From Crotophaga sulcirostris (lineage: Eukaryota; Chordata; Aves; Cuculiformes; Crotophagidae), in NCBI GenBank assembly GCA_013397455.1, contig VYZB01000040.1:980253-1044252 (forward strand): a stretch of DNA of 64,000 bases. Direction: 5' to 3'. Positions within the stretch are counted from its first letter, which is position 1. The number at the start of each line of letters is the position of its first letter. Of the stretch, positions 4,401 to 58,900 are shown one piece after another. Both the position numbers and the translations under genes were made by a program. The notes beneath the pieces were generated by a model, which worked only from the letters and a program-made list of their open reading frames with translations, did not search any database and was not told the DNA's origin.

Positions 4401-7400
4401 AGCAAATGGGTATACATGGCAGGGCACTGGGACATTGTCCTGATAGAAGACAAGGGGCTTCCCTGTGCCTGGTTAGTGTTTCACTGCATGAGAGCTTCCC
4501 TTTTGCTGTGCAGCTGCCACAACTGAATTGCCCATCACTGGGCCATGGAGGATTTGGTGGAGCACTGTCCTGGCATTGTGATTTTTGGAGCAGTCTTGGC
4601 CAGGGCTTGTGCAAAACCTGCTTCTGATATTTGGCAGCACAAGGGATTTAGTTCTCCTGCATGGAATTGTTTCCACTGACATCAGTAGTCGTGCTCGCTA
4701 AAACACATTGAAAAAAGCAAATCAGACTGGGATATTGGCAACAAGGATTGTGCTCTGTGTGGTGAATTTAGAGAGCCCTCAAGTCCAGTATTGTGCCTTG
4801 ATGCTGATAGAGCTCCAGTCCCACAATAGGGAGTATCATCAAGTTTCCACAGAAAGACAAGAAACCTCCATAATTTACCTGACCAATAATCAGATGGTCA
4901 AGTTTAAAGTCAGGATACATATGGAGCATCAACAAGCTGCCAGGCCAACAAAATGCCACTCCTTTACTTACTGCCCAGAACCTCAGACTTCAGGACTGCT
5001 GTCATTGCTAGTTACCTCCCCCACATCCCAGGCAGGTTGGAGAGGCTTTCCATCATCCCACTATGGATCTGATCCAGGGCAATTGGATATCAGAGCACAG
5101 ACTCCAATCTGACTCTGGATCAGACCCCATTTCCCACCAAGGTAATCATCCTAATGCAGTTTTTTTACTCTTTGCTCATTTACCAGCTGCTTGATAAATG
5201 CTGGTATAGTATTATCAGACAAAACTGCCAGAGAGAACTAGAGTGCATGAGCAATGTGTTAGTTAAAGGGGAGGCTGGGGGGTTAACATAGCACTAAAGT
5301 TTGGTGAGCATGGAAATTTATAAAAACTTGGATGAAATACTGTGGCTGTGCAGTTTTTGGCAAGCAGTTTCCCACAGTTAATGTCTTGCACACAATGTAA
5401 CTTGCTGGTTAAGCAGCAGTTTTACCTGTTTTTGCCTGGGATGAAACTGGGAAAGGCAGAGCATCCCTCCTATGGACTGCCCTGAGCACTGAGAGCAGCA
5501 GCTTTCACTCCCAGCTCTGCTGAAGTATCCCTGGATTTCCCACCTAATCTCTTTCCATCTCACATGTCCCACAGCAGTTTCCTTATATGACTTGGGTGGG
5601 AATGGGGAATGCCCAGGAGCTTAGGGCACCTAAGCCTTGGTTTGCAGATAACAGATATTAAAGTCCTATTGTTTAAGAGTTAATCAGCGATTAATAGAGA
5701 TGGTACACTCTCACAAAGATGAGGGTTTGTGTTAGGGATGGTTATGAATTCATCAGCAGAGAGTGGCACACAGCTGATGCAACTCTTGATGATGAGAAAT
5801 TCTTGGACTGTGGATTAGGCATAATCTTTAAGAATTTATTAACCATAATTGTTCCTTAACTATTTATAAATAAAGTCTCAATATAAGGGGTGATATAGGC
5901 ACCTACTTAGTACTTTATCTGCCTATTTTGGTTTCAAAACTCACAGAAACCAGGGAAAAATTCTTTGCTGGTTCTTTGGATATGGAATCGAACCTTGCAT
6001 ATTTGTTTGGTGCATCAGACAATATTTTTAAAAATAACAATAGTGAGAGAGAAAACAGTTCCTATTGAGAAAGAAAATCCTGAGGTTGACTTTTTACTGA
6101 GCTAGAGAGGGAAACAAGAATGAACAGATTTTCTGGAGCAGGGATCTGACACTGTGGGGTTAGGAGAGTCTGCTGAGTTGCCCGCTAGGATACATCCCCT
6201 CTGCACCCAAGGAAAGAAATCCACTCACTTGCCGTTGTTGAAGATGACAGTACAGTTGGGCCAGCAGTCATGGTTGGCCTGGCAGAGGTTGGGGAAGACT
6301 CCCACACCAACAGCCTGCAGTCCTCTTTGGTCACTGAGGGTAAAGCCATTGCAGTTGATCTAAACCCAAAACATAGGCAGGAGGAAACATTAAGGGAGGA
6401 AAAGCTGTACTCAACAACATCCAGGATTTCTCAATTCCTGTTGATGCTTTAGAACAGGATCTCCAGCACCCCATCTCCAAACTTCAAGGAGAAAGGAGGA
6501 GTGCCTGTGAGATTATTGCAGAAAGTAAATTTAGATATAACATCTTTAGTTGGGATAAAACCTCAGCAGGGAAGCAATGCAGGACTCATGCGGATGGACC
6601 AACTCAGGACAGAGCTGAGCAAATGTTGCAGAATATTTACTGTTAACATCATTTGGGATGTCTAAGATAATTTGCTTTGACCAACAATTGGTTTCCTTAT
6701 ATTTGTTTCCTGCATATAATTCAGAAAAAGGTCACAGGAAAATGAATTTGAGGCAATTTAAGCAGAGTATCAGCAGAAAGCAAAGTTCACACGTATCAAA
6801 ACAGTTATCAGTTAGAAATTAACCTTAAGAGCTGCGTTCAACCTGGTTGCATTTGCTGAGTGGCCCACAGGATTTATAAAAAAACAGTTACTACATCCCA
6901 GACAATTTCAGAATGACTACTCTTAGATGACATATATGCCAAGAATAAATTACTATATTTTTCTATATGGTACACTATCATCACATGTAAATGGAACAGT
7001 TTTCAGCTGCAAACATAAATAAAGGAAGCATTTGCAAAGATAAAATGTGATAGGACATACCAAAGGAAATCATTAACTCAGCTGCTAATTGTTTTACTCT
7101 GTTAATAGTTTTATTTCATTTCTGTGTGTTATCTGTACTTCCTTACTTCTGCAGGGGCAAGTTGTGTCTCCCTGTGCCCAGAGGACTGGATTTCCTTTGC
7201 AGGGTGGGTACCAAAGGATGCTGTGTGCCCTCCCTGTGCTAGGGTTGGCAAAGCCAACTTCTCTGCCACACCAACCATTGGCAGAGGTGTGAGCACAGGG
7301 TGTTTCTCATCTCAGCTCAGTGCTGCTATAGCTGATGGGGTAGTGCAGCTCAGGATACTGGGTTTGTTAGCAGGGCTGGGAGCAGAGCAGCTCAGCCCAA

Positions 7401-10400
7401 AACTATCTTTTGGGAATTTCCCTCTCTGGTACACTGAGAACAAAAATTTACAGTTAACAAGTTAGGAACAGATATTATTAAATACATTCTGTATATTTTA
7501 TCTAATTTATAATATACGTATATATATAAATATATATTTATTATACATATGTAAAAATCTATAGATAATATATAGATTATATAGATAATATTATATACCT
7601 TAATAATAATAGACAATATTATATAATCTTGAGAAAGATGTCAAGACACTGGAATGTGTCCAGAGGAGAGCAATGAAGATGGTGAAGGGTTTGGAGCACA
7701 AGCCCTATGAGGAGCGACTGAGGGAGCTGGGGCTGTTTAGTTTGCAGAAGAGGAGGCTCAGGGGAGACCTTATTGCTCTCCACAACTACCTAAAAGGAGG
7801 TTGTAGTCAGGCAGGGGTTGGTCTCTTCTCCCAGGTGACCAGTGACAGAACAAGAGGACATGAACTCAAGCTTCGTCAGGGGAGGTTTAGGCTTGATATT
7901 AGGAAAAAGTTCTTCACTGAAAGGGTGATTGGCCATTGGAATGTGCTGCCCAGGGAGGTGGTGGAGTCGCCAACCCTGGAGGTGTTTAAGAGAAGATTGG
8001 ATGAGGCACTCAGTGCCATGGTTTAGATAATGGGTTGGTGTTAGTGTTGGGTTATAGGTTGGACTCGATGATCTCAGAGGTAATTTCCAACCTTGCAATA
8101 CTGTGATACTGTAATATAATAAAACACAATATATAATAGACATTAATGTATATACCAAAATGGATCTGCTATTTTCAAAGATATTATAAATATCTTTACT
8201 AAAAATATATTTAAATATATTTTCTCAGCTCTCCCAGGTGCAGAGGGATGCCCAGTGGGTCTTGTGATGACTATTCAGCACCTACAGTTGAGTGAGCCAC
8301 TTGCCTGCATGCTTAGACAGACAAAATGTTTCAGATCTTGCCCTTGCTGTGCCTCAGTTTCCCAATGTCAGTGCAGAAGCGATGCAGAGGGGGAATGGGC
8401 AGTGCTCAAACTACCAAAGGTCGGTCTTGGCTGTCCCAACCTCTCTGGCTTCTTAAAGGCAAGAGAAGGATGAACTCAGCCATCCTCAACTCAGGCCAGC
8501 TAGAGACTTTCTCTGGGAAGCTGGCATTGAAAGCAGCCCCCTGCTTGCTCCCCCACCCCTCTGACTTACCACTCCAAATATGTGGGAGATGTACTGCAGG
8601 CCAAACTGCTGGCTCTGGGATGGCCAAAACTCCAGGAAGCTTTCCACATCAGTGCGGAGCTCCTTCTTCTCCTCCTCGCCAAAGCTGTCCACGTGGTTCT
8701 GCAAGTCATCGATGGAGACCAGGCAGCCCTCTGCCAGCCCACTGCCTTCCCTCTCGATCTTCCACATGATGCGGGCAGCCAGCCTGTCCAGGAGAGATCC
8801 CCAGCTGTTAGCATCACCACCACCCGCTGCAAGGAGAGGGACTGAAGGACGTCAAAATTCATTTCATGGGTAGGAAATTGTGTGCAGACAAACCAAAACA
8901 AGCTCAGCATTAGTTGACTGAAGGCTGGTGACCATCCATGGGCTTTTGAAAGAAAGGGAGATGAAGGTTTTGCCCTGGTATCCATGTTCTGGCCAGGTTG
9001 GATGGGGTCTTGAACAGCCTGGTCTAGTGGGAGGTGTCTCTGCTGATGGCAGGGGGGGTGGAACTGGATGATCGTTAAAGTACCTTCCAACCCAAACCAT
9101 TCTGTGTTTCTCATCTGAAAAAAAGCTAGAGACCCTCCAGGTCCCCAGTTGTCTATGATGGCTCTCATTTCCATGGGGATTCCTCTCTCTTTCTTTTGAC
9201 AGAGCCAGGTTGTGAAGCCAAATCCATGTATCCTATAGACTAATGGGGGAAAGATCCCATCTGTCCTTCCACTTCTCTACCTACTCCCCACTTTCTCATA
9301 CCTCCTAAAGCACCCTGGGTGGATTTGCCTCACCATGTTCAGCTGCAGTAGAGTTTTTGGGGCCCAGCACAAAAAATAAAAAGCAGAAGCACAATGCCCT
9401 TTCACCCCAGATGCTCCTCCAGGTCCTCATCACTTCAGCTCAGGGGTGTTCCTGTCCTTTCCCAAACCATCTCCCATCTCCACTCTGGCCAAATCAGGCC
9501 ACCGAGCTGTTCCTTGCCGTGCTTCGGAGGGATGCCCTGCCCTCTCCCACTGTCCCCAGGCTGCTGGCTCAACCCCTGGGGCCCAGCTCTCACCTGATGT
9601 TTTCGGTGGGCGCCTTGCCATACTTCTTGATGGCAGAGCACTCATTTTTGTGGTTCAGCCAAGCTGCTCTCTGGCAGGTCCTGTCGCAGTAGTAGGCAAA
9701 CTTGCACTGCCCGCAGCGGTGCAGCCTCTCCTGCCGTTTGAAGCAGGTGTGGCAGACGACGTGTGTCAGGCTGGAAGGACAGAAGGACCCTTTGGTTCAT
9801 ACCTCAGCGAAGGACCAGTTCCACCCAGCAAGGGTCCTGCCACCTTTGTGTCCATGGGTTCCCCACACCCACTAAGGATGGACCTCTTGAGATTTTTGAG
9901 GAGGATGAGGAAACATCCCACCTGGTTTAATCCACACCCACTAAGGATGGACCTCTTGAGATTTTTGAGGAGGATGAGGAAACATCCCACCTGGCTTAAT
10001 CCTTGAACTTCTGCCCAATGCTGTTGCTTTTCTGTTTAGATACATCAGAGACAAATATTTTATTTAAAGGAGGACAGCAATAAAGCATTTCCCAGCTCTC
10101 AGCCCTCTTGTCTGCAGCTCGTCTGCTCCTCCTCAGCACAGACACTGTTAATAGCATTTTCAGTCTGTTTTTCTTTTTCTGTCTGGCCCGTACTGAAGCA
10201 CCAGCCACCCGTTTGCTGAGCAGAAAACAGGAGCCTAATGAGTCTGTAGCTCAGCCAAGCAAAGAGAGAGCCTGAGAGCTTCACCTGCCTGCAGAGCCTC
10301 TGAATTTGGTTGAAGTAAAACCCCTCTTGAGCACTAAGTCTTTCCATCTTTCCCGAGCCTCTCATGGGCCACCACCATGCCCAAGAGACTTAGGAAAACA

Positions 10401-39114: not shown

Positions 39115-39120
39115 TTTATT
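39115..39120 (-). promoter_or_regulatory. Possible polyadenylation signal for the proviral transcript
   Basis: AATAAA on the minus strand about 50 bases beyond recognisable 3' LTR homology. It could terminate transcripts of the provirus at or just outside the LTR. Confidence 0.4.
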
Positions 39121-39172
39121 GATTACATACACAACTAAGCAAAGCAAAGCAGTGATGTCCAGGCTCTGGAAA

Positions 39173-39452
39173 GAAGATCTCACCAGTCCATTGGCCAGAT
39201 GTTCTGGGAGTCTCAGGAGCCCAGAAATGATTGCTGCTAAAGTCCATGTGGATTCAGTTCCTTTAAGTCCAAGGTGATTACAGGGTCCTTCGTTTTGCTA
39301 ATCTTTCTTCCTCCTTCCAAAGTCTCTCAGGATGGTAACACTTCTGCGATATTCAGTGGGTGCTTTTCCACACTCGGGTGTTACAGTCCATTCTCTTTTC
39401 TTCCAAAGACACTGTCTTTGGCTTTGTCCACTTCTCAAGGAGTCTTAAATCA
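39173..39452 (-). repeat. 3' LTR of the provirus (diverged)
   Basis: Aligns with 48238-48518 in the same orientation and order: TGATTTAAGACTCC at the outer start, then a shared GACACTGT...TTCCAAAGA block, then CTTTAAG and AGATCTCACCA (plus-strand wording) near the inner end. Unlike the 5' copy it has no good TATA box. Confidence 0.72.
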
Positions 39453-39915: not shown

Positions 39916-42540
39916 CTATGGTAGGAGGCGCTTGGCCAGCCCCAGTCCTTTCATCTGGTTGTCAATGCAGCATTTCACCTGTCTCATCCTGTAACAAGTC
40001 GCTACCATGGCAAAGCACAAGCAGATTTGCATTACCAGAACAACTACAACAGGGTGCAGAAGCGCATTGAAAATCCCAGTGGCCATGGGGGACCAACCGA
40101 AGAAAATTTCCCACCAGTGATGTTCTCCCGCTCTCTTAATTCGTTCCATTACCTGTTTTATAACTTTTCCATCATGATGTACAGTTATTAGGATCTTTTT
40201 AGCTTCTGCCTTAGCATTTTCTAACAGCTGCAGTAAATTCGCATGCACTAACATTTCTTTTACAAGTGACAAATCCATACCAATGGGGGTCGGGGTTATA
40301 CTACGATACAAGGTATAGTTTCTGATTAGCAACTGGCTAGTTAACATGGGTGGTTTATAGACAAAATCACAGCCTCTAATAATAGCTACATTGCAAGCAC
40401 ACATATTTGAGTCGTTAAACACAGTCTGATTATAAACTTCATTAATTTGCACGTATTTGCACGTTGTTCTAAAACACACGCACCCTTTCCCTACATACAC
40501 TAACACAGTTTTATTACTGCTCTGGGGATTGATCTCAAAATGGCACAACCCTTCTTTGGTGTCAAAGCAAACATCACTCGCCTTAAGGGCATCATCTTCG
40601 CATATAAATCCCAGCCCCCTTTCCAAAATGCAGGCTTCCAAATCTACTGATTGCCATTTCCCATCAGACACCCTCGCCCACATACGATGGTCCAGGGGGT
40701 AGAGCACAGACCCATTTGTGTTTACCCCCAGGGCCACGATGGGGTAGACCTTTTCAATGCGAGCCTCAGCCACGGTCAGGACATGAGCGATGACTACATT
40801 GAGCACCTGGTCGTGGGTGAAGTTGACGAGCCTCCACCAGGCTTGGAGCTGCCGCTCCTTCTCCGTGGCCGCATCCCACACAATCTTTCGGATCTCGATG
40901 GGGAGGACGCCGTTGTCACCATCTCTCAGGATACCTGCAATGACACTCTGCACCCACATCTGAGCCTGGATGCAACTGAGAGCAAGAGAGATGTTATTTT
41001 GTTCAACGCCCAGTGCTCGCAACAGCAGTTGGTGGTCCTTCTCGCTTATTTGTTCCCAGGTGGGCAACACCTCTGACACAAGCCACTGCCCCATCCCAAG
41101 GCTGGCCAGGGATGAATTCAAGGGGTTGAGGAGGCCCTGCACACCTGAGGTGACAGCCTCCAACTTGTTGGACAAAACCTCAACATCCATGCTATTGAGA
41201 ACTCCCAGCCCAGCACCTCCTCCTCCCAGTGCTGTGGCCAGCAAGTCTCTTCTGGCCCGAGTCCCCTGGATGGAGCGGCTGTGGAGCCATGCAAGCCAGC
41301 CAGTGTGGAGGGTAGACAGAAAGGGGGTACAGTGTGGTCTGACAGATGAAATATTAACGGTGGACAGGGACAATACAACCTTCTTCAGTGATCGTATGGG
41401 CCCAGTCAGCAGCTCTTGGACATGATTTCGCTTGACTACATAAGGGCCTATTTTGGAAACAAAAGGGCGCAAGACAGCAATGATGGTAAACTCTTTTTTA
41501 AATCCTTTGGGGCCTTCTATCCACCACTTCCCTCCAAGCTCAGGGGACATTTCTATACTCAGGTTTCCTCGACACCACACCTGAAGGTTTATGATCAGAT
41601 GTGGGCAGCGTCCGTAATCCTGATTATACCATGAAGCCTCTGTGCCTAATTCAGAGCTATTAAGCATTTTGCCCTCACGGAGGCAGTTTACTGGCACAAC
41701 CCACTTGTGGCTGTTCGGGGCAGTGATAGTCACAGTCACGCCATTGATTTGCATCGGGTCAGTTATACTTTCTTGGGAGTATTTAATTTCCAGTTTTACT
41801 TGCTTGCCAACTTCAGCGTATTGCTCTGCATGCCAGGCCAAAAAATGGCACTTTGAGATCATAACAGCAGCAAAGGAGTGTGTCATGGTGTTAATCTTGA
41901 ATTTAAAGGACAACCCCACACTGTTTTGGGCCCAGAGGCAGACCACAAAGACCGGCTGGACCAAAGTAAAATTGTACCAACAGTCCATTTTTTCTACAGC
42001 ACAGTTTTTTTTCTGGTTCTTTTTAGTTTTTAATTCAGTTACGGAGATTTGAGTTACCCGCTGGTGAGTGGATCCATTAATTACCCTGCACCCTACCTTT
42101 ATTTCTTGTCCCACCTTCCCTGGCAGCTGTGGGAGTCTGTTTATGCTGTCCCAGCTCCACTCATTTTCCAAGTACACCTCCATCCCATGCATAACCACCG
42201 TTGACAAATTTAAGCCTTTGTTAGAATTTAAACCCATGCTTCCTGTATATTTTATATAAGCTTGAGACCAGGGCCAATCGGTCCCAATTTTTGTGTACCT
42301 CCTAACCCTGTGCTGAGCTGTGGCCCATGTGTCAGGGTGCCTTTCTAAGTGGGAACAACTAACTTCTTGTCTGAGATGCTGATGGGTTGGTTGGATGTAT
42401 TGGGTGTTCAGCACTAGGCACATACCAGAAAGCAAAGCAAATCCTGCAACCATAAATTTCAAAGCATTTTCCTTGCAGCACAAACAGGGCTGGTGATACC
42501 ACGAAGTTCGCCCTTCCTGCTGGTCACAATCACCTTCCAT
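39916..42540 (-). CDS. Endogenous retroviral env (intact surface/transmembrane glycoprotein)
   Basis: An 874-codon open frame, ATG at 42540, stop TAG at 39918-39916, starting 46 bases after pol ends. An N-terminal hydrophobic segment (about residues 28-45) sits behind a short cytosolic-looking stretch. Many N-glycosylation sequons follow. A furin-type site RARR is at 428-431, followed by a Gly-rich hydrophobic fusion-peptide-like stretch (about 434-448), helical regions, and a membrane anchor at about 826-850 with a short basic tail. The CX6CC motif of gamma-type envelopes was not seen. A likely splice acceptor (TTTGCAG ending at 42551) lies just before the ATG, fitting a spliced env mRNA. 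The domain order is that of a cleavable fusion glycoprotein; activity is unknown. Confidence 0.88.
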   Translation of the reverse strand: MEGDCDQQEGRTSWYHQPCLCCKENALKFMVAGFALLSGMCLVLNTQYIQPTHQHLRQEVSCSHLERHPDTWATAQHRVRRYTKIGTDWPWSQAYIKYTGSMGLNSNKGLNLSTVVMHGMEVYLENEWSWDSINRLPQLPGKVGQEIKVGCRVINGSTHQRVTQISVTELKTKKNQKKNCAVEKMDCWYNFTLVQPVFVVCLWAQNSVGLSFKFKINTMTHSFAAVMISKCHFLAWHAEQYAEVGKQVKLEIKYSQESITDPMQINGVTVTITAPNSHKWVVPVNCLREGKMLNSSELGTEASWYNQDYGRCPHLIINLQVWCRGNLSIEMSPELGGKWWIEGPKGFKKEFTIIAVLRPFVSKIGPYVVKRNHVQELLTGPIRSLKKVVLSLSTVNISSVRPHCTPFLSTLHTGWLAWLHSRSIQGTRARRDLLATALGGGGAGLGVLNSMDVEVLSNKLEAVTSGVQGLLNPLNSSLASLGMGQWLVSEVLPTWEQISEKDHQLLLRALGVEQNNISLALSCIQAQMWVQSVIAGILRDGDNGVLPIEIRKIVWDAATEKERQLQAWWRLVNFTHDQVLNVVIAHVLTVAEARIEKVYPIVALGVNTNGSVLYPLDHRMWARVSDGKWQSVDLEACILERGLGFICEDDALKASDVCFDTKEGLCHFEINPQSSNKTVLVYVGKGCVCFRTTCKYVQINEVYNQTVFNDSNMCACNVAIIRGCDFVYKPPMLTSQLLIRNYTLYRSITPTPIGMDLSLVKEMLVHANLLQLLENAKAEAKKILITVHHDGKVIKQVMERIKRAGEHHWWEIFFGWSPMATGIFNALLHPVVVVLVMQICLCFAMVATCYRMRQVKCCIDNQMKGLGLAKRLLP

Positions 42541-42550
42541 TTTTCTTTAT

Positions 42551-42552
42551 CT
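42551..42552 (-). promoter_or_regulatory. Candidate env splice acceptor
   Basis: Minus-strand TTATGTTTTGCAG ends at 42551, eleven bases before the env ATG. With the donor-like GAG/GTGAGA at 48353/48352 in the 5' LTR it could produce a subgenomic env RNA. The pyrimidine tract is weak. Confidence 0.4.
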
Positions 42553-42586: not shown

Positions 42587-45500
42587 TTAATTTCCCTTCC
42601 ATGCTTTTAATTGAGAAGAATGGAGCCATTTTTCCTGCCTTTTTGCCCTCTTTCTGATTTCTACCTGGTACACAGAGGAGCTAGCCTTGTTCACGACCCT
42701 AACAGGCCCCAACCATTGGGGTTCCAGCACCTCGTTCTTCTCTCTAACCCCCCGATATATTACCAGGTCCCCTATGTTCCACTCCGCAGGGCGCACCAGT
42801 GCTCCCAGCTGCTTATCTATCTTGGGTATGTTCTGCACTGAGGCAAGCTGGTGGTATGTAGCCAGCACGGTCCTCAGCATGTCCTGGACCCACCTGTCTG
42901 TCAGGATGCGGGGCTGAAATTCATCTGGTGGGTCCCCTCTTTGCCACCAGTGTCCCAGCATCTTCAGGTCTCTTGCAGGAGGCAGCTTTTGGGAAGAAGG
43001 CACTTGAGATGCCACAGCTGCCCGTAAAGCCAGCAGGACTAATGGGAGCTTCTGATCCCAGTCTTTCCTTTGCTGGTTCACAAGCTTCCTCAGTGCCGTC
43101 TTTAGTGGCTCATTGGGCCCCTCTACTTGGTTAGGGTTCTGGAGATGCCCCGTGATCTGAAGCTTTTGCTTGATACCCAGGGCTTGGCATACCCCTTTCA
43201 TGACTTCTCTGATGAAGCGTTGGCCTTGGTCTGAGTAGATCTCTTTTGGGATGCCCCACTGTGAGAAGACGTGCTCTACCAGGATCTTTGCAGTTGTGCT
43301 GGCCATGTCATTTCGAGCTGGAAATGCTTCCACCCACTTGGTGAAGGTGTCACTGATCAGCAGGCAATACCTGTTCCCTTGGGCTGTTTGGGGCAAGGGG
43401 CCAATAAACTCCATCTGAAGCTTGCTCCATGGCCCAGAAATCCTCTGGTGGCCTAGGAGGGCTTTGGTTGTTTTGGCATCAGTGTTGTCAGCCACGCACG
43501 TCAGGCAGTTGCTGACATACCTCTCCACATCCTCTTTCATTTCAGGCCACCACCCGGCACCCTGCAGCCTCACCATGGTCTTGTCTATTCCCAGATGCCC
43601 CTGCTCGTGAGCTAGGGCCACCAGCTCTGTCCGGATGAGTTCAGGCACCACCCAGACCGGGAAGTCTGCCCCCTCCCTCTGTGCCAGGACCAACCCCGAG
43701 ACGTGCTTCCACACCTTGCACCCTTTGTACTCCCTGCCCTGCACTAACTTCTGGATGCTGGGGTCTTGCGCCTGCAAGCCTGCCAGGTCTACAGTCTCCC
43801 AGTGTTTGGGAGCCACTGGCAAGGGGCCATTCTCCGAGGGCTTGCTGGCTTTCCACATCAACCCTTCCTTCGCAGCTTGCTTGGCTTTGAGGCCTGCCTC
43901 CTTGTTCCATTTGGCTTCCTCCATTCCCTTCTTATGGGCCTTGACCTTAATGATCTGGGCCGGGCGTACCCTCTGCTCGGCCAGCCTCGCAAGGTACAGC
44001 AGTTTCTTGGCGTAGGTGATGGGCTTGCCGTCGGCAGACTGCATGTCCCTCTCCCTCCAGAGTGGCAACCACTCCAGAGCAACCCGCACCACCCAGCCTG
44101 AGTCAGAAAATATGGCCAGTGGCTTGTCTGCCGGCGTGTGTTCCAGGGCAACCGTGATGGCCATCAGGTCAGCAGCCTGGACGGAGTGAGGCAGGCACTT
44201 CCCCTTCACCACCTCGCCAGTGCTCCAGTTGATGGCAGCATAGCCCGTATAGGTCACCCCTGCCTCGTGGTAGTTGGACCCGTCTACAAACCACACAACA
44301 TAGCCTTTCTCCTTGGCCTCCTCCAGGCTGAGGCCACTCTCAAACAGGGGCACCTGTCGTGGCTTGGGCTCTGCTAGAGAACCCTCCGGATCCTCCTCAT
44401 CCCCCTCTCCACTGATTGCCACGCGATAGGTGCTGGATGACAGCTCCCCTGTCTCCCCAGGGACCTCCTTGTTGGTCAACACTAACGCCCAGTTGGCCAT
44501 CCTGGGGCAGCACAGGGGACCATTGTCCCCTTTAGCCAACAAGAGGTACCTCACTGGGGTACAGGAGGTCCTCAGCAGCACTGGGGATGACCCTAGCAGG
44601 TACTCCCAGCGCTGCAGGGCCCAGGTCAAGGCTAAAACCTCCCTCTCATAGTCAGTGAACTGCTGCTCAGTCGGTGTCAGGAGGCGCGAGGCATGGGCAA
44701 TGGGGAGGTGGTGGGCACCATGCTGCTGGCCTAGAGTGGCCCGCAGCCCCTTGCCCACACTGGACAGCTGCAAGATGTAGGGTCTGTCCCCCTGGGGACA
44801 TGTCAGCACAGGAGCTTTCACTATGCTCTCCTTTAAGGTCTTCACGGCCTCATCCTGCTCCTGCCCCCATTCCCAAGGTATGTCCCTCTTCAGGAGGCGG
44901 CAGAGGGGGGCAGCTTTCTCTGCATAGCCCTCAACAAACTCCTGGGAGAACCTCAGGAGAGTCAGGAAAGACCTCAGGGTGGTGGTATCGGCTGGTGCTG
45001 ACACTTTCTGTATTAGCTCAACCCTCTGCTTCTCCAGAGAGCGCCTACCCTCCCCCAGGGTCATCCCTAGATAGGAGACCTCCTTCCAGCACAGTTGGGC
45101 CTTTGTGGGACTGATCTTGAAGCCCGTCTTCTGGACGGCCTCTAGCACCTCAGCTAGCACCTCCAGGTTCTCCTCCTTTGTTCGAGTGTGGATGAGGATA
45201 TCACCAGCGCAGGACAGTACGTTGTCCCGGTGGTTGAGCTTCTCCCACATCCTCACTACATGTGCATGGCAGATGGCAGGGGCATTGTGGAAGCCCAGAG
45301 GGACTCTGGCAAAGACAAATTGCCGTCCTCGAAGGGTGAAGGCAAACTTGTGCCGGGAGTTGGGATGCAAGGAGATGGCAAAATATGGGCTGGTCAAGCT
45401 GAGCACTGAGAACCACTTGGATCCCCTAGAGATGGCCTGCATGATGTCTGGGTACTTGACCACTGCAGAGGTACGCTGTGGGGTGACACGGTTCAGGGTG

Positions 45501-46252
45501 CTGAAGTCAACCGTCAGCCTCCACGTTTTCCCATCGGCTTTCCTCAGGGGCCACGCTGGAGCATTGCTGGTGCTCTGCTGCTCTATCAGCACTCCCTGCT
45601 CCAGCAAGGTTTTGATTGTGTCCCACAAGCTGTTGTCAGCCTCAGCTGGGTACCAGGGCTGTGGCTGAGGAGGGGGATCTGGCCCTTTGACTGTCACAAC
45701 AGCATCAATCTGCCCGCAGTCCAGCTTGTTCCTTGCCCAGACCTGGGGGAACTGTTCTGTGACCTGTATCACTCGGGGGTTCCACTTGGGGTGAACCAGG
45801 AGCTCAGGGGCTTTCAGTGACATCACCCTGTGACTCGCAGGGATGATGGACACATCACTTTGGGGGCAGTTTAACAGTGCTCGGTTTGCCAAGTCCACCA
45901 CCACCCCCATGTTTGTCAGCACAGAGATGGCTAAAATTCCTGGCTTTCCTTTCATTTCCATTTTCCCAAATTTTTCAGACCCTTTGACAGTCCCAATTTC
46001 AAAGGATAAGAGCCCTGTGAAAGGCACTGAGGATTTTTGGCCATTGGGCCCTCTCAATTCAATAATTTCACAGGTTTGGAAGACCCCAGCTTCGCATGGG
46101 GCCATATTCAGAATAGAATAAGAGGCACCAGTATCAATTAACATCACTTGTCCAAGCACCCCTCCTCCAATAGTTATATCAACTATCAGCCGCCCCCACG
46201 AATCGGTCTTAATTGGTGCCACAAAAAGGGGCGTTGCGGGTGCCTGGCAGCC
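42587..46252 (-). CDS. Endogenous retroviral pol (PR-RT-RNase H-IN) with degraded catalytic sites
   Basis: About 1221 codons open from the base after the gag UAG. It has no ATG at its head (position 46222 is GTG), so it would be made as Gag-Pol by stop-codon readthrough. Numbering below starts at that GTG. The protease keeps LIDTGA (Asp30). In the reverse transcriptase the motif A aspartate is replaced (FSVLSLTSPYF, Ser275), the YxDD box reads CAGD (338-341), and the usual LPQG-type loop reads VPLG (307-310). RNase H retains FVDGS (Asp647) and FSDSG (Asp707), but the second acidic site is Asp685 and the last position looks like Gly777. Integrase keeps the H-H-C-C finger (about 872-909), Asp998 and Glu1034 with a spacing of 35, but the first catalytic Asp is Glu938. 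The product is probably enzymatically dead, yet the frame is intact. Confidence 0.9.
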   Translation of the reverse strand, partial: GCQAPATPLFVAPIKTDSWGRLIVDITIGGGVLGQVMLIDTGASYSILNMAPCEAGVFQTCEIIELRGPNGQKSSVPFTGLLSFEIGTVKGSEKFGKMEMKGKPGILAISVLTNMGVVVDLANRALLNCPQSDVSIIPASHRVMSLKAPELLVHPKWNPRVIQVTEQFPQVWARNKLDCGQIDAVVTVKGPDPPPQPQPWYPAEADNSLWDTIKTLLEQGVLIEQQSTSNAPAWPLRKADGKTWRLTVDFSTLNRVTPQRTSAVVKYPDIMQAISRGSKWFSVLSLTSPYFAISLHPNSRHKFAFTLRGRQFVFARVPLGFHNAPAICHAHVVRMWEKLNHRDNVLSCAGDILIHTRTKEENLEVLAEVLEAVQKTGFKISPTKAQLCWKEVSYLGMTLGEGRRSLEKQRVELIQKVSAPADTTTLRSFLTLLRFSQEFVEGYAEKAAPLCRLLKRDIPWEWGQEQDEAVKTLKESIVKAPVLTCPQGDRPYILQLSSVGKGLRATLGQQHGAHHLPIAHASRLLTPTEQQFTDYEREVLALTWALQRWEYLLGSSPVLLRTSCTPVRYLLLAKGDNGPLCCPRMANWALVLTNKEVPGETGELSSSTYRVAISGEGDEEDPEGSLAEPKPRQVPLFESGLSLEEAKEKGYVVWFVDGSNYHEAGVTYTGYAAINWSTGEVVKGKCLPHSVQAADLMAITVALEHTPADKPLAIFSDSGWVVRVALEWLPLWRERDMQSADGKPITYAKKLLYLARLAEQRVRPAQIIKVKAHKKGMEEAKWNKEAGLKAKQAAKEGLMWKASKPSENGPLPVAPKHWETVDLAGLQAQDPSIQKLVQGREYKGCKVWKHVSGLVLAQREGADFPVWVVPELIRTELVALAHEQGHLGIDKTMVRLQGAGWWPEMKEDVERYVSNCLTCVADNTDAKTTKALLGHQRISGPWSKLQMEFIGPLPQTAQGNRYCLLISDTFTKWVEAFPARNDMASTTAKILVEHVFSQWGIPKEIYSDQGQRFIREVMKGVCQALGIKQKLQITGHLQNPNQVEGPNEPLKTALRKLVNQQRKDWDQKLPLVLLALRAAVASQVPSSQKLPPARDLKMLGHWWQRGDPPDEFQPRILTDRWVQDMLRTVLATYHQLASVQNIPKIDKQLGALVRPAEWNIGDLVIYRGVREKNEVLEPQWLGPVRVVNKASSSVYQVEIRKRAKRQEKWLHSSQLKAWKGN

Positions 46253-46255
46253 CTA
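46253..46255 (-). promoter_or_regulatory. In-frame UAG between gag and pol (readthrough-type junction)
   Basis: The gag frame (47950) and pol frame (46222) differ by 1728 bases, a multiple of three, and no other stop intervenes. CAGCAATAGGGCTGC places a G after the UAG. Gammaretroviruses express Pol by suppressing such an amber stop. Whether a downstream pseudoknot exists is not determined. Confidence 0.75.
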
Positions 46256-47950
46256 TTGCTGAACTTTAGAACCCGGGTCAATCGGGTTGGAGCTGCTGTG
46301 CTTTTTGGCCTCATGTAAGACCAGTTTTTCAAAGAGCTCCGAGTCCGGCAAACTATCAATATCCTCCTGCTTTTCGTATTTTATCAAGCGCTTCCTGACC
46401 TCAGCCCGCCAAGGGTTGGACTTCTGGAACCTCATCCCTTGCTGGTTCTCCTTCCCCAAACCACCCTTGCCATCGGGATCTTTTCTGTGGTCTCCTTGCA
46501 TTTTTCTCATCCCTGGATTTTGGAAGGACATGGCTGAGTTTTTTCCTTTCTTCCCCCCCAGCATGTACCCCGGGAATGCCTGTTTTTGCAGCTCAAAATT
46601 CTGGGTCAGGATCTGCTCCAGCTCTAACAGAGGCTTTCTGGCCGCATCCCCACCAGCAATCACCCTCAGCGGTGGGGTCAGCCCCACCACCAGTGGCTCC
46701 TTGAATTCAGGTCTGTCAAAATCAAGAGGGGAGTCCTTTGAGCCAGGCAACCCAGCCATCTGGTAGAGCATCTTCTTACGGTTAACATAGGCATCTGGCC
46801 TCTCCTCTGGATTTTGTTTCTCCTGGTGGAATAGCACTAACGGGTTGACCTCTGGGAAGAATACCTTTAGCACAGCCGACAGGACGTCCCCAATGTCCTG
46901 GACATTACCCATTTGCACGTCCCCCGGCAGCGCCGCAAAATCATCTGGTTTCATGCACTTTCTCACCACGTCTATCAGGTCACTCACGGAGTTGCCATTC
47001 TGGCAGCTGGGCAGTCGCTGGGCCCTGGACAGCCAGTTGACTGCTGTCTCCTTTGTCAACGGCCCCAGCATCTTTCCTACCGTCTTAAGCTGCTCAGGGG
47101 TAAGCCAGAGCATAGCCCTGTTGGTGTCTATGGCCTGGAGTGGTCCGTGGCTAGCTGGCTCTTCAGGGGGGCTCTTTTTAACTTTGGAAGCCTCCACCTC
47201 CCCTCCTTGCATCTGGCAAATCTCCTCCCGTAGAGGAGCATAGGGGGATGGCCTGGTGGGGCCATTGGCACCCCACACATCATCCTCATAGTCATAGTGG
47301 GGTGGGTGCGGGTCCAGGGAGTCCTCCCCTTCACCATTCCCAAACCGGCTCCTTTTGCCTTGGATGGCAGCCACAATGCCCCTGGACACCCCCAGCTCTG
47401 CCTGCAGCTCCTGGATCTTGGCATGGCACACCTTATGATCAGGGCCAGTACCCCGGTCCCTCTGGACGTCCTGCAGGACAGCCCGCACTGCACTCTGTGC
47501 ATCATGGGTCTCCCCGATCCACTTGCCAACCTCCTTCTCCAGCTCCTCAGTTTTCAGCTTCTCATAGCCCAGCTTGCTCTCCAGCCGGGTGATCTCCACT
47601 GCGCTCCGCAGAGAGTCCCCACACAAACCCTGCACCTCTGCACGCAGGTTGTCCACCTGCATTTTAAGCTCACTCTTGGCCTGCTCCAGTGTCTGCACAT
47701 TGTCAAGAGCCTCCTTAAGCAATTTGGACAACTCCCTGCCCACCATCAACAAACCCTGCAAAGCCGCTCGCTTCTTACACTTGTTTGTGGGTTTGGGCTT
47801 TTTAGACTCCTCCGACCAGCTCTCCCACTGCTGGCAGAGCTGCTGGTACGCCTCTGGGCCTTGGAAGGACCCGGGGGACCAGATTGGGGGGAGACACTTC
47901 TGGAGCACATACTGCTCCATCTTCCAGTTGCTAACGATATCGGTCATCAT
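46253..47950 (-). CDS. Endogenous retroviral gag (coiled-coil Gag, no zinc knuckle)
   Basis: A 565-codon open frame with ATG at 47950 in a good ACCATGA context and a TAG stop at 46255-46253. Visible features are a long heptad-rich coiled coil at about residues 75-195, a PPHY (PPxY-type late-budding) motif at 216-219, a proline-rich linker, a capsid-like helical region about 270-450 with a QxxxE-type homology-region echo near 376-395, and a basic Gly/Lys-rich C-terminal part. The Cys-His zinc knuckle usual in orthoretroviral nucleocapsid is absent. Gag normally assembles particles at the membrane; whether this one does is unknown. There are no stops or frameshifts despite the age of the LTRs. 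The next codons read straight into pol. Confidence 0.9.
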   Translation of the reverse strand: MMTDIVSNWKMEQYVLQKCLPPIWSPGSFQGPEAYQQLCQQWESWSEESKKPKPTNKCKKRAALQGLLMVGRELSKLLKEALDNVQTLEQAKSELKMQVDNLRAEVQGLCGDSLRSAVEITRLESKLGYEKLKTEELEKEVGKWIGETHDAQSAVRAVLQDVQRDRGTGPDHKVCHAKIQELQAELGVSRGIVAAIQGKRSRFGNGEGEDSLDPHPPHYDYEDDVWGANGPTRPSPYAPLREEICQMQGGEVEASKVKKSPPEEPASHGPLQAIDTNRAMLWLTPEQLKTVGKMLGPLTKETAVNWLSRAQRLPSCQNGNSVSDLIDVVRKCMKPDDFAALPGDVQMGNVQDIGDVLSAVLKVFFPEVNPLVLFHQEKQNPEERPDAYVNRKKMLYQMAGLPGSKDSPLDFDRPEFKEPLVVGLTPPLRVIAGGDAARKPLLELEQILTQNFELQKQAFPGYMLGGKKGKNSAMSFQNPGMRKMQGDHRKDPDGKGGLGKENQQGMRFQKSNPWRAEVRKRLIKYEKQEDIDSLPDSELFEKLVLHEAKKHSSSNPIDPGSKVQQ

Positions 47951-48229: not shown

Positions 48230-48518
48230 AAATAATAAGATCTCACCAATCCTTGGCAGAATGTCCTGGCAGTCCTGGGGGCCTGGAGACGATCGCTGCA
48301 GAGCTCCAGCGAATTCAGCACCTTTAAGGTCAAGGCGCTGATGGGGTCTCACCTCGGTGACTTTTTATAGCCATGGCAGGTCCTTGTTTGGGATTGATAA
48401 CACCTCTGTTTACTTTCTCGGTGTTTTTCCTTCTGCAGGTGCTGCATCCCTCCTTTGGTCTTCCGAAGGACACTGTGCTTGTTTTTTCTTATCTTCCTGA
48501 TTAGGGAGGCTGTAATCA
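48230..48518 (-). repeat. 5' LTR of the provirus (diverged)
   Basis: On the minus strand it appears to begin TGATTACAGCCTCC at 48518. A TATA box (CTATAAAAAG) lies at about 48362-48371, and a splice-donor-like GAG/GTGAGA at 48353/48352. The inner end is uncertain because homology to the 3' LTR fades after GGTGAGATCTT (about 48238). No convincing tRNA primer-binding site follows. A TATA that survives while the LTR pair has diverged suggests a still usable promoter. Confidence 0.75.
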
Positions 48519-55900: not shown

Positions 55901-58900
55901 CAATGCAACAGAAATCTTCTGTGAGCTGAAGACAGAGCACACTGGGGTGTACTGGTACCGCTGGAGCCAGAAGAGGCAAAATTTTGAGTTCTTGGTATTT
56001 TCCAACCCGTTGGGCAAAGCAACGTATGGCGTAAACATCAACCAGGACAAGTTTAGTGTCCACGGGTCAAAATCCCACACCTCCTACAGCCTGCACATCA
56101 GCCACCTCCATGCCTCAGACAATGGGACCTATTACTGCTCCATCTCCCAGTCCTCCCAGCTCCTCCTGGGCACTGGGACACGGCTCGGTGTGGGTAAGCA
56201 TCACCTTCACAGCTCCAAAATGTGCCACCAGCAGGCTGTGACAAGGTGGCATAGGTAAGGGGTCAGGCTTGTTGGTAGACTCTTCCTAATGTTGAGACAC
56301 AAGGCTGGAGCTTTGGAGTTTTCCTGAAGGGTCCTGTGAGAAAAATGTCTCACATTTCCATGTAAAATAACAATGGTTTCCATAGGAATTTTAATCTTGA
56401 GTAGAAGGAGAAAAAATAGTTATGAGTCATGCAAAGTTTTGAATAAGCAGAATCTGAGTGGTCAGATATACAGCTCTTTAATGACATTATTGGGATATTT
56501 TCATGACCAACTTTACAGAGAGAGGGACATACTCCATGGTAATTCAGAAAAAATATGTATTCAGATACATTCATAAAATATATTCAGAAAAAAGGCATGT
56601 TGGTAGACCCTTCCTAATTTTGACATGCAAGGTTAGGGTTCTGGAGTTTTCCCAAAGAGTCCTGTGAGACTGGTTAAGTCAGAAAATACAGAAAATAGAT
56701 GTACTTTAGGTCAGCTGCATGTGACAGTCCTTTTGCCTCCAGCAGTTGCTCTGCTGTGGTCATTCCTTGAGCACCACATTGGTCCTGGCATCTTAGGATT
56801 TCCATGAGAATACACTCAGTCCCCAGGATTGCCATGCCCTGTGTTTTTCTTGTCCCCTGTGGTGCTTGTGGATATGTGCCCTGCTCAGCTCCCCAGGTCG
56901 TCCTCACTCTTTCTCAAAGTGTCAGGCCAGAGGACATCACCCCTTGCATTGCAGGGGTGGGTTTGACTCCAGATTTTAAGCCTGTCCTTCACATAAAGGA
57001 CTGAAGTGGGATTTATTCCTCAAAGCTCACAACCCACCGTCACTGGGGAATTCCATTGAAAAGCCAGAGCTGTCTGCAGGTCCTTTACAGACCCTGGGTC
57101 TTATAGCAGCTCTTTTTAGTCCATTTTCCTCTTGAACACAGAGAAGGAGGTGACCTGTAAAAACTAAAGTGGTTGAAGTAGGATTCAACCCTTTCTTTGC
57201 AGGCTTTCAGGGAGACAAATAACTAATTAAACCAAGACCCAGCTAAGGATGTTGGCTCTAAATCATCCCCAGTGTCCCAGCATTTCTGTTTTTTTTTTAA
57301 AATATGCCTTGCACCTTGGGCTGGCTGAGAAACTGGATTCTTGCTGGCTCAAAGAAAAGGTGCTTTCAGATAAGGGAAAACTGTTCTTCATCAAGTGAGC
57401 ACATATCTATGTGCAAAGCAAAGCATGAAAAACAGGGCTGAAATTCAGCACGATCAAGGACATTCCAGTTTAAAACTAAGCACCAGCAGGTGTCTGGGAG
57501 GGCTGAGGCTTTGCTGGATATTTTCTTTTTTTCCTTTAGTATACATGATAAAATAAATTGCCTTTAAGCTCTTTTGCTTTTCGCTGATTATAGTGTAAGG
57601 GAGAAGTTGCCCAGATAAATCCCGAGCAACAAATGTCTCACCTTTCCGTGTAAAATAACGATGGTTTCCATAGGAATTTCAATCTTGAGTAGACACAGAA
57701 AAAATAGTTTAGAATCATGCAAAATTTTGAATAACCAGAATCTGAGTGGTCAGATGTACAGCTCTTTAATGACATTGCTGGGGTATTTTCATGGTCAGCT
57801 TTACAGAGAGATGGATGTACTCCATTGTAATTCTGAAAAAATATAATAAATATTGCTCTCATTTTACCAGCAAAATAATAGTAATAATAATGCAATTTTA
57901 AGGAAAGATTAGAGCAATCTGAATATGGAAAATATCCAGGGATGCCTTAAAACCTCCCAATGTTACTGATATCTCCCACTAGCTGTGGGAGACAATGTCT
58001 GACAGTAAAGGCAGCTCAAGAAAGTTTCCTTTTTCTCTTACCTTCTGCCCTTGTTTGCCTGCTACATTTTTTTATCAATGCTTTTACAACCCTTTTGTAA
58101 CTTCTGTGGTCACCAAGAGGTTCAGGTCAAGCCCCCAGACCCTCCAGATAACCCAGCCCTTTGCAGGGCTCCCTCAATAGGATGAGTTTTAAAAGCCAAA
58201 ATTTCCAGCCCTTCTTGCCTGCTAGATGAGATCTCTGCTGCGCTCAGTGCCATACTGACCATCCTCTTCTCCTTCTCACACATCAGTTGATGTCTTGCCT
58301 CTGCCTCCGAAGACCACTCAGGAACCATTCTCCAAAAAGCCCATGCGGCGCACGACCAAAAGAAAAGCTGCTGGTGAGAAAGGTACAGCACCAGGTTTGC
58401 TCAGGCTGCTTTGCCAAAGGGGTTTGCTGAGCTCCTGGGGATCTCCAAGGGTCAGCTTGAGTTTGTTCTGGGATGGGGGTAACCACAACTTGACCTTGCA
58501 GAGGTCCACCTAGACCCACCAATCTGGATGGAGCTGACCTCTGCCTTTAGGAGAGGTCTCTTGGCATACACAAGGGTTTAGGGGCCAGGCTGTATTGTCA
58601 CCTAGCTCTGCCTAAGCTCTAGACATTAGGAAAAATTTCTGCACTGAAGGGGTGGTCAAGCACTGGAACAGCTGCCCAGGGAGGTGGCTGAGTCCCCATC
58701 CCTGGAGGTGTTTAAAAGACAGGTAGATGAGTTCTCAGGGATCTGGTTTAGTAAGTGGAGAGGTACAGTTGGACTCGATGATCTCAGAGGTCTTTTCCAA
58801 CCAGATGATTCTATATTTCTATGATTCTGATGACCTTGGGGGTGCAGTGTCACGCTTACAGGCACGGTGAACTCCTGTGCCAGAGAGGACACCATGAAAA

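Follow-up and report, generated by a model that had tools for sequence, protein, structure and literature searches.

The window analysed here, a stretch of 64,000 nucleotides from Crotophaga sulcirostris (contig VYZB01000040.1 of assembly GCA_013397455.1, positions 980,253 to 1,044,252), contains on its reverse strand the ortholog in this species of the avian retroviral element Ovex1. The pol gene of this locus, which a preliminary description of the window had pointed out as an open frame of more than 1200 codons, is composed of 1221 codons with no stop, and encodes a polymerase polyprotein (Pol) whose reverse transcriptase (RT) and integrase active sites are damaged. The best explanation, which we regard as reasonably probable, is that selection has preserved this damaged Pol within a non-replicating protein of the host, produced as Gag-Pro-Pol through read-through of the TAG codon that terminates gag. 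According to this explanation, RT and integrase catalysis would have been lost before the ostrich split, read-through of the gag TAG would extend Gag into Gag-Pro-Pol, and the resulting Gag and Gag-Pro-Pol would not replicate, carrying RT and integrase as folded but inert parts. In somatic cells of the ovary, the product may work as an assembly or scaffold built on Gag, to which Pol would add a mostly non-enzymatic arm, perhaps with protease activity retained. Taken by itself, the Gag particle or scaffold step is the least certain one and is proposed tentatively. That Ovex1 performs a host role in the bird is likely, and the ovary is probably the place.

In the window Pol, the RT motif A reads LSLTSPYF, with Ser285 in place of the Asp, motif B reads RVPLGF, and the YxDD box is CAGD (residues 348-351). 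In the integrase, the motif LQMEFIG places Glu948 at the position of the first Asp. Residues are counted here from the upstream stop, and the preliminary description, which counted from a GTG at 46222 and is 10 lower, had correctly located the same features (Ser275, CAGD, VPLG and Glu938). The fourth acidic position of RNase H is occupied by Gly787, as it had also noted, and the second one is altered as well (E to D at 695), a change absent from its list. The positions in motif A, motif B, RNase H and integrase were anchored by alignment to the chains of murine leukaemia virus (MLV) and Ty3. In the MLV alignment the YxDD box is shifted by one residue; its placing was corrected by the gap-free turtle relative P0021, in which SYVDDILI lies under SCAGDILI.

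The losses in RT and integrase are shared across birds. A protein search with Pol gave 135 matches, 120 of them listed, and the 16 closest, at 76-84% identity, were used as orthologs on the basis of this identity rather than of synteny. Six of them come from named birds (Grus, Heliangelus, Melanerpes, Willisornis, Ciconia, and Struthio). P0020 was left out, whereas P0021, P0022, and P0024 served as outgroups only in the comparison of RT, RNase H, and integrase residues. Among the resulting 17 Pol sequences, window included, the motif A Asp is absent throughout (Ser in 16, Cys in one), as is the first Asp of the YxDD box (Gly in 16, Ser in ostrich), and the first integrase Asp is replaced by Glu in all. 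The preliminary description had proposed that dN/dS well below 1 together with the same catalytic losses in other species would support co-option, and at these three sites the losses are indeed universal. The second YxDD Asp, the second integrase Asp (D2), and the integrase Glu are each kept in 16 of 17, and the HHCC residues of the integrase zinc finger are whole in every sequence. The motif B position holds Pro in 13 sequences, Leu in three (window, P0007, and P0008), and Gln in ostrich only. The VPLG residues thus exist as described, but do not represent a common ancient loss, since ostrich keeps the Gln. Likewise, the RNase H Gly is real but stands outside the shared pattern, being found in the window alone: the acidic tetrad is complete in 15 of 17 sequences, and the exceptions are the window (Asp at position 2 and Gly at position 4) and P0007 (Val at position 3, D717V). 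The catalytic Asp of the protease is present in all 14 sequences covering the site, 13 of them with DTG.

Two relatives, P0021 from a turtle (Pelusios) and P0022, retain the motif A Asp and YVDD, and because they do so, the loss of the RT aspartates is derived. P0021 shares 41% identity across 60% of Pol and, unlike Ovex1, keeps its RT catalytic residues. The losses in RT and at the first integrase Asp (D1) probably predate the split of ostrich from other birds. The residue distribution suggests an order in which the RT Asp and integrase D1 would have gone before the ostrich split, motif B after it, and the RNase H residues in single lineages. In the Pol tree, ostrich, P0010, and P0014 are separate from the remainder with a support of 100; P0010 and P0014 are probably Galloanserae. 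Several inner branches of this tree are weak (support 23-62), and the root on ostrich is our choice. In addition, open reading frame 3 (ORF3), the env-like gene of the locus, was found in kiwi with 83% identity. The ostrich Pol and the kiwi ORF3 provide, at the protein level and without synteny, the palaeognath data called for in PMC2717909. No orthologous bird DNA was found in the viral contig collection, scanned with pol alone, a pol alignment, and a gag alignment.

Selection was assessed by protein-level tests and by tests on the window codons. The two repeats bounding the locus differ by a Kimura two-parameter (K2P) distance of 0.275 (95% 0.171-0.421), which may understate neutral change since the 5' repeat carries the promoter and the splice donor. 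Neutral evolution was simulated forward at half this distance in 1000 runs, giving 16.8 expected stops in pol (minimum 6 in any of the runs), 12.1 in env, and 7.3 in gag. At the lower 95% bound the expectations are 11.5, 8.1, and 5.0, respectively, and runs without a stop amount to 1/1000 for pol and 8/1000 for gag. This result is in line with the earlier argument that a neutrally decaying provirus should have gained stops, as about 17 are expected in pol and none is seen. A separate estimate comes from the replacements in Pol. When the crane is taken as partner and ostrich as outgroup, 102 replacements are assigned to the window side. With 0.063 stops expected for each replacement under neutrality (transition weight 4), these predict 6.4 stops, and none is observed (Poisson P 0.0016). 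A stricter set of 52 changes private to the window, omitting columns with fewer than five other residues or below 80% agreement, corresponds to 3.3 expected stops against none (P 0.038). The P0017 gene model ends in an env-derived tail, which was masked both for the tree and when changes were counted; P0155 was excluded from the env tree only.

Constraint is visible at the amino-acid level as well. Private replacements reachable in one step are more conservative than expected under neutrality, both in pol (P 0.0025) and in gag (P 0.033). Rates vary strongly among sites, with alpha of 0.58 in pol (gamma log-likelihood gain 363), 0.43 in gag, and 0.59 in env. The mean pair identity is 0.88 in gag (8 sequences), 0.84 in pol (17), and 0.82 in env (12 sequences, based on 11 of 53 env matches with P0155 included), over species sets that differ. 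Within Pol it is lowest in the spacer before RNase H (0.67) and highest in the integrase zinc finger (0.91), with RT core, protease, RNase H, and integrase core at 0.83, 0.85, 0.88, and 0.885, respectively. Published dN/dS values are 0.08 for gag, 0.18 for pol (between chicken and zebra finch), and 0.16 for ORF3 (PMC2717909). Amino-acid-level constraint and the missing stops support selection on the Pol protein. The preliminary description had left the choice between selection for the protein and for the RNA frame; the protein is favoured, and the RNA-frame alternative is weaker given that the constraint is visible in amino acids.

Decayed relatives in the same genome offer a direct comparison. 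The genome tables cover the scored candidates (38 of 187 for pol and 52 of 121 for env), and their single-frame matches underestimate frameshifts. The gag gene has one match in the 1.06-Gb genome. Among 43 scored pol stretches, one is Ovex1 itself (100%) and the others scored are at most 38% identical; stops occur in 33 of these 42, including all six aligned over at least 400 codons. Similarly, one of 63 scored env stretches is Ovex1 (100%), the others scored are at most 56% identical, and 48 of these 62 contain stops, including all 19 aligned over at least 200 residues. Ovex1 is single-copy in this genome. Its open-frame value (1221) is the top one among 54 integrase-core stretches, followed by 1041 and 638, by a measure that is not clean, as it gives 6224 for one stretch containing a TAG. 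This stretch, L025 (1354-4368, G000:C647), is a degenerate pol-like sequence that contains one TAG; beyond it, several long frames are open simultaneously on both strands, and the region of its reported 6224-residue frame is perhaps repetitive. Another provirus (L023, 1-2196) has an open frame, 731 residues of it in the stretch, which by its motifs is gag-like with an integrase and seemingly lacks the RT region. Moreover, a second Pol-like bird protein exists, P0024 (Grus americana LOC129204052, 1270 residues), which is 35% identical to Ovex1 Pol. It retains the Asp of motif A and an RT site of the FVDD type, but several acidic residues of RNase H and integrase are altered, a pattern almost opposite to that of Ovex1. 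Its best matches in the Crotophaga genome besides Ovex1 (36%) are 30-31% identical and contain a TAG.

The comparison of proteins also suggests how Pol is made. All seven other Gag proteins terminate at the same residues, and Gag is absent from each of the 16 Pol proteins; on these grounds the gag TAG appears to be conserved. The first ATG in the pol frame is residue 37, within the protease. Two other proteins, P0004 and P0014, extend into the 26 residues ahead of this ATG, and both are almost identical to the window there. Read-through of the gag TAG is favoured as the mode of pol translation, given the position of the first ATG within the protease and the conservation of the residues ahead of it; read-through was also presumed by the authors who described Ovex1 (PMC2717909). 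In chicken, Ovex1 is expressed in the granulosa lineage, its transcript is tissue-specific in the gonads, and two mRNAs are described (PMC2717909), and RNA sequencing in 2016 reported wider expression with a peak in ovary (PMC5006616). LOC422926, which is Ovex1 ORF3 according to PMC2717909 and in agreement with P0137, is among the left-biased genes of embryonic gonads of both sexes. A tandem mass tag proteome of hen follicles lists C7ACT2 (LOC422926) with a ratio of 0.476, marked 'Down' (P 0.0007), which by our reading of its other rows means that the level is reduced in F6 relative to small yellow follicles. Because LOC422926 is ORF3, this entry is likely evidence of ORF3 translation, a matter left undecided in PMC2717909. 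The status of ORF3 as Env was likewise uncertain there, and is supported by the likeness of ORF3 to P0158, an Apteryx protein named Envelope glycoprotein. Env-like proteins encoded at other bird loci (P0158-P0182) show 35-54% identity to ORF3. By eye, P0158 has stretches related to both halves of ORF3, and around residues 216-364 Ovex1 has a longer segment than P0158.

Several other explanations were weighed against selection on a non-replicating Pol. The main rival, which we judge unlikely, is an antiviral decoy in the ovary, in which Gag and Pol would co-assemble with incoming related retroviruses and Env would block receptors. Such a function was proposed for Env in PMC5006616 and discussed in PMC2717909, and a dead Pol built into a Gag-Pol that still assembles would lend itself to dominant-negative action. 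Related env genes in several birds (P0158-P0182), together with the many stretches in this genome, suggest that a target family probably existed. On the other side, most of the relatives that this genome contains are broken, and rapid evolution would be expected of a decoy, in contrast to the strong constraint found at gag sites. Decidedly less likely is that only Gag and the env-like protein are useful and pol has remained open by chance, on a shared unspliced transcript and within the intron of the env mRNA. The strongest conservation of Gag, in mean pair identity and in the published dN/dS (PMC2717909), agrees with this, as do the single-lineage losses of pol catalytic residues, which continue in the window RNase H and in P0007. 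Neither the neutral expectation for pol, never below 6 stops in the simulation at the central estimate, nor the 6-8 stops expected from window-side replacements fits a frame open by chance, and the strong rate variation among sites, the integrase zinc finger whole in all 17 sequences, and the published pol dN/dS also speak against it. A relaxation of pol alone in the window lineage was considered and found no support: window and crane changes stand at 102:42 in pol and 53:20 in env, so that env exceeds the crane alike (Fisher P 0.87; P 0.12 when P0010 and Gallus are the outgroups).

That the RNA or its frame, as a regulatory transcript, has been kept instead of the protein is very improbable. 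The tissue-specific gonad transcript of chicken (PMC2717909) is compatible with it, but an RNA has no need of a 1221-codon frame, and the conservative replacements in pol and gag point to the protein, those in env falling short of significance (P 0.055). The idea that a recent or reinfecting provirus is simply too young to have decayed is hardly credible at all. All three genes are open, as it predicts, and yet the locus is single-copy, its repeats are 77.9% identical, its catalytic residues are gone, and the split of ostrich, P0010, and P0014 from the rest in the Pol tree has a support of 100; a recent insertion is refuted by the orthologous SMYD1-CD8 position, shared with chicken and zebra finch. 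A more far-reaching version of the co-option hypothesis, somewhat unlikely in its entirety, is that the whole provirus became a host gene set before the crown birds, with RT and integrase switched off first, Gag, protease, and RNase H forming a working processing machine, and regulated read-through in ovarian support cells.

Selection on a catalytically damaged Pol, which we still prefer, has to be held against a number of observations. The conservative-replacement test in env is, as given above, not significant. The window lineage evolves faster than the crane in both pol and env, and its terminal branch in the pol tree (0.142) is the longest. A special constraint on the active sites of protease and RNase H was looked for and found no support: their mean rate is 0.56, and that of sites drawn at random from these domains is 0.83 (P 0.18). 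Because the kept residues evolve no slower than their own domains, retained catalysis is unsupported, and two of the four RNase H residues are changed in the window and one in P0007. The protein database favours open frames, so that broken orthologs would go unseen; only six of the 16 Pol relatives are tied to named birds, with identity rather than synteny behind all 16, and the Patagioenas entry P0020 is a gene model assembled from fragments. Furthermore, PMC5006616 describes the chicken gag and pol as apparently truncated and the RT domain as seemingly intact, a reading with which the residue-level losses found here and in PMC2717909 disagree. The proteome entry carries the ORF3 gene name and is silent on the translation of Pol. 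The fold model of Gag is poor (mean pLDDT 45.6) and no Gag Pfam match lies above the cut-off, so that the case for capsid assembly comes from the major homology region (MHR) of Gag.

The identity of the locus follows from its flanks, anatomy, and motifs, which match the 2009 description of Ovex1. The preliminary description had suggested this relationship, and it agrees with PMC2717909 in flanking genes, gag-TAG-pol/ORF3 layout, motifs, diverged repeats, and splice sites. The locus lies between SMYD1 exons and a CD8-beta-like exon, the position Ovex1 has in chicken and zebra finch (PMC2717909); the match of the latter exon is not exclusive to CD8B, as several antibody chains and one T-cell-receptor V-domain chain score higher. 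The Gag MHR EKQNPEERPDAYVNRKKMLY and nuclear localization signal (NLS) KKPKPTNKCKKR are identical to the printed chicken Ovex1 motifs, and the pol motifs MLIDTGASYSIL (protease/RNase H set), WFVDGSN, and FSDS are identical to the published ones. The integrase has the chicken form E(X)59D(X)35E. Pfam matches in pol comprise RT, two RNase H-like domains, RNase H, the integrase zinc finger, and the integrase core, and ORF3 is 83% identical to Gallus LOC422926 (P0137) across 100% of its length. The R-like repeats of about 115 bp are 77.9% identical over 113 sites, with an alignment score of 65 compared with a maximum of 30 in 200 shuffles. The long terminal repeats (LTRs) described earlier as visibly diverged are diverged indeed, but the label is too wide, as only these R-like repeats were found. 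The features are listed in the table.

Features of the Ovex1 locus and its flanks in the window
Feature	Position	Strand	Remarks
pol ORF	42587..46252	(-)	1221 aa, one open frame plus stop; in frame with gag past the TAG; protease, RT, connection, RNase H, integrase zinc finger, integrase core
gag ORF	46253..47950	(-)	565 aa, terminated by TAG
env-like ORF3	39916..42540	(-)	874 aa, in a frame other than gag/pol
TATA box	48364..48369	(-)	upstream of the 5' repeat; placed relative to the repeat as in chicken Ovex1
5' R-like repeat (LTR remnant)	48234..48348	(-)	contains the splice donor; local alignment to the 3' repeat
3' R-like repeat (LTR remnant)	39171..39287	(-)	local alignment to the 5' repeat
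Predicted splice donor junction	48246..48247	(-)	GGATTG/GTGAGAT; chicken donor mapped by 5' rapid amplification of cDNA ends (5'RACE)
Predicted splice acceptor junction, env mRNA	42550..42551	(-)	spacing to the ORF3 ATG equals that of chicken
Candidate polypurine tract	39302..39318	(-)	17-nt purine run
Polyadenylation signal	39115..39120	(-)	AATAAA; placed as in chicken
Flanking SMYD1 exons	6255..9754	(-)	SET (NHDCWPNC) and MYND; E 1.3e-32 to SMYD1, E 2.3e-23
V-set Ig exon, consistent with CD8B	55914..56138	(+)	other flank; CD8 beta chain E 3.4e-12

Syncytins and restriction genes of the Fv1/Fv4 type are single env or gag genes with known roles, whereas Ovex1 has the full gag-pol-env set open and a role that is only proposed. 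Like them, it consists of retroviral genes kept by the host (PMC2717909, PMC5006616). The window shares with chicken and zebra finch Ovex1 the gag-amber-pol single frame, an ORF3 of 873/874 residues, the repeats and splice sites, the loss of two of three RT aspartates, and the MHR, NLS, protease, and RNase H motifs (PMC2717909). It differs from chicken in its ORF3 of 874 residues and in reading WLGPVRV instead of WMGPVRV, from zebra finch in the second integrase residue (D in the window, E in zebra finch), and from published Ovex1 in the changed RNase H positions 2 and 4. As for the nearest viral relatives, to which P0021 belongs, SpeV of the tuatara is named in PMC2717909, and a crocodilian tree (2014) groups CrocERV37-39 with Ovex1. 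The nearest printed parallel found is RTOM1-3 of monotremes, in which an RT region lacking all three catalytic aspartates is under purifying selection (PMC9514029). These three genes are RT-derived only, clustered in a GRIP2 intron and expressed in testis. In Ovex1, by contrast, gag, the whole of pol, and an env-like gene are retained, and so is one RT aspartate out of three. For chicken and zebra finch, the open frames, the synteny, the low dN/dS, and the chief catalytic losses were already known (PMC2717909). As far as a limited literature search shows, what is added here is another bird species, Pol from ostrich and ORF3 from kiwi, the proposed order of losses, the control within the same genome, and the link to the follicle proteome.

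To our knowledge, most retroviral co-options known keep one gene. A full gag-pol-env set, open probably since living birds arose and with dead RT and integrase sites, would be a rare case for the use of a Pol that does not copy. The sites that died early, those that died late, and those still standing point to protease and Gag as the first places in which to seek its function, and to RT and integrase chemistry as the last.

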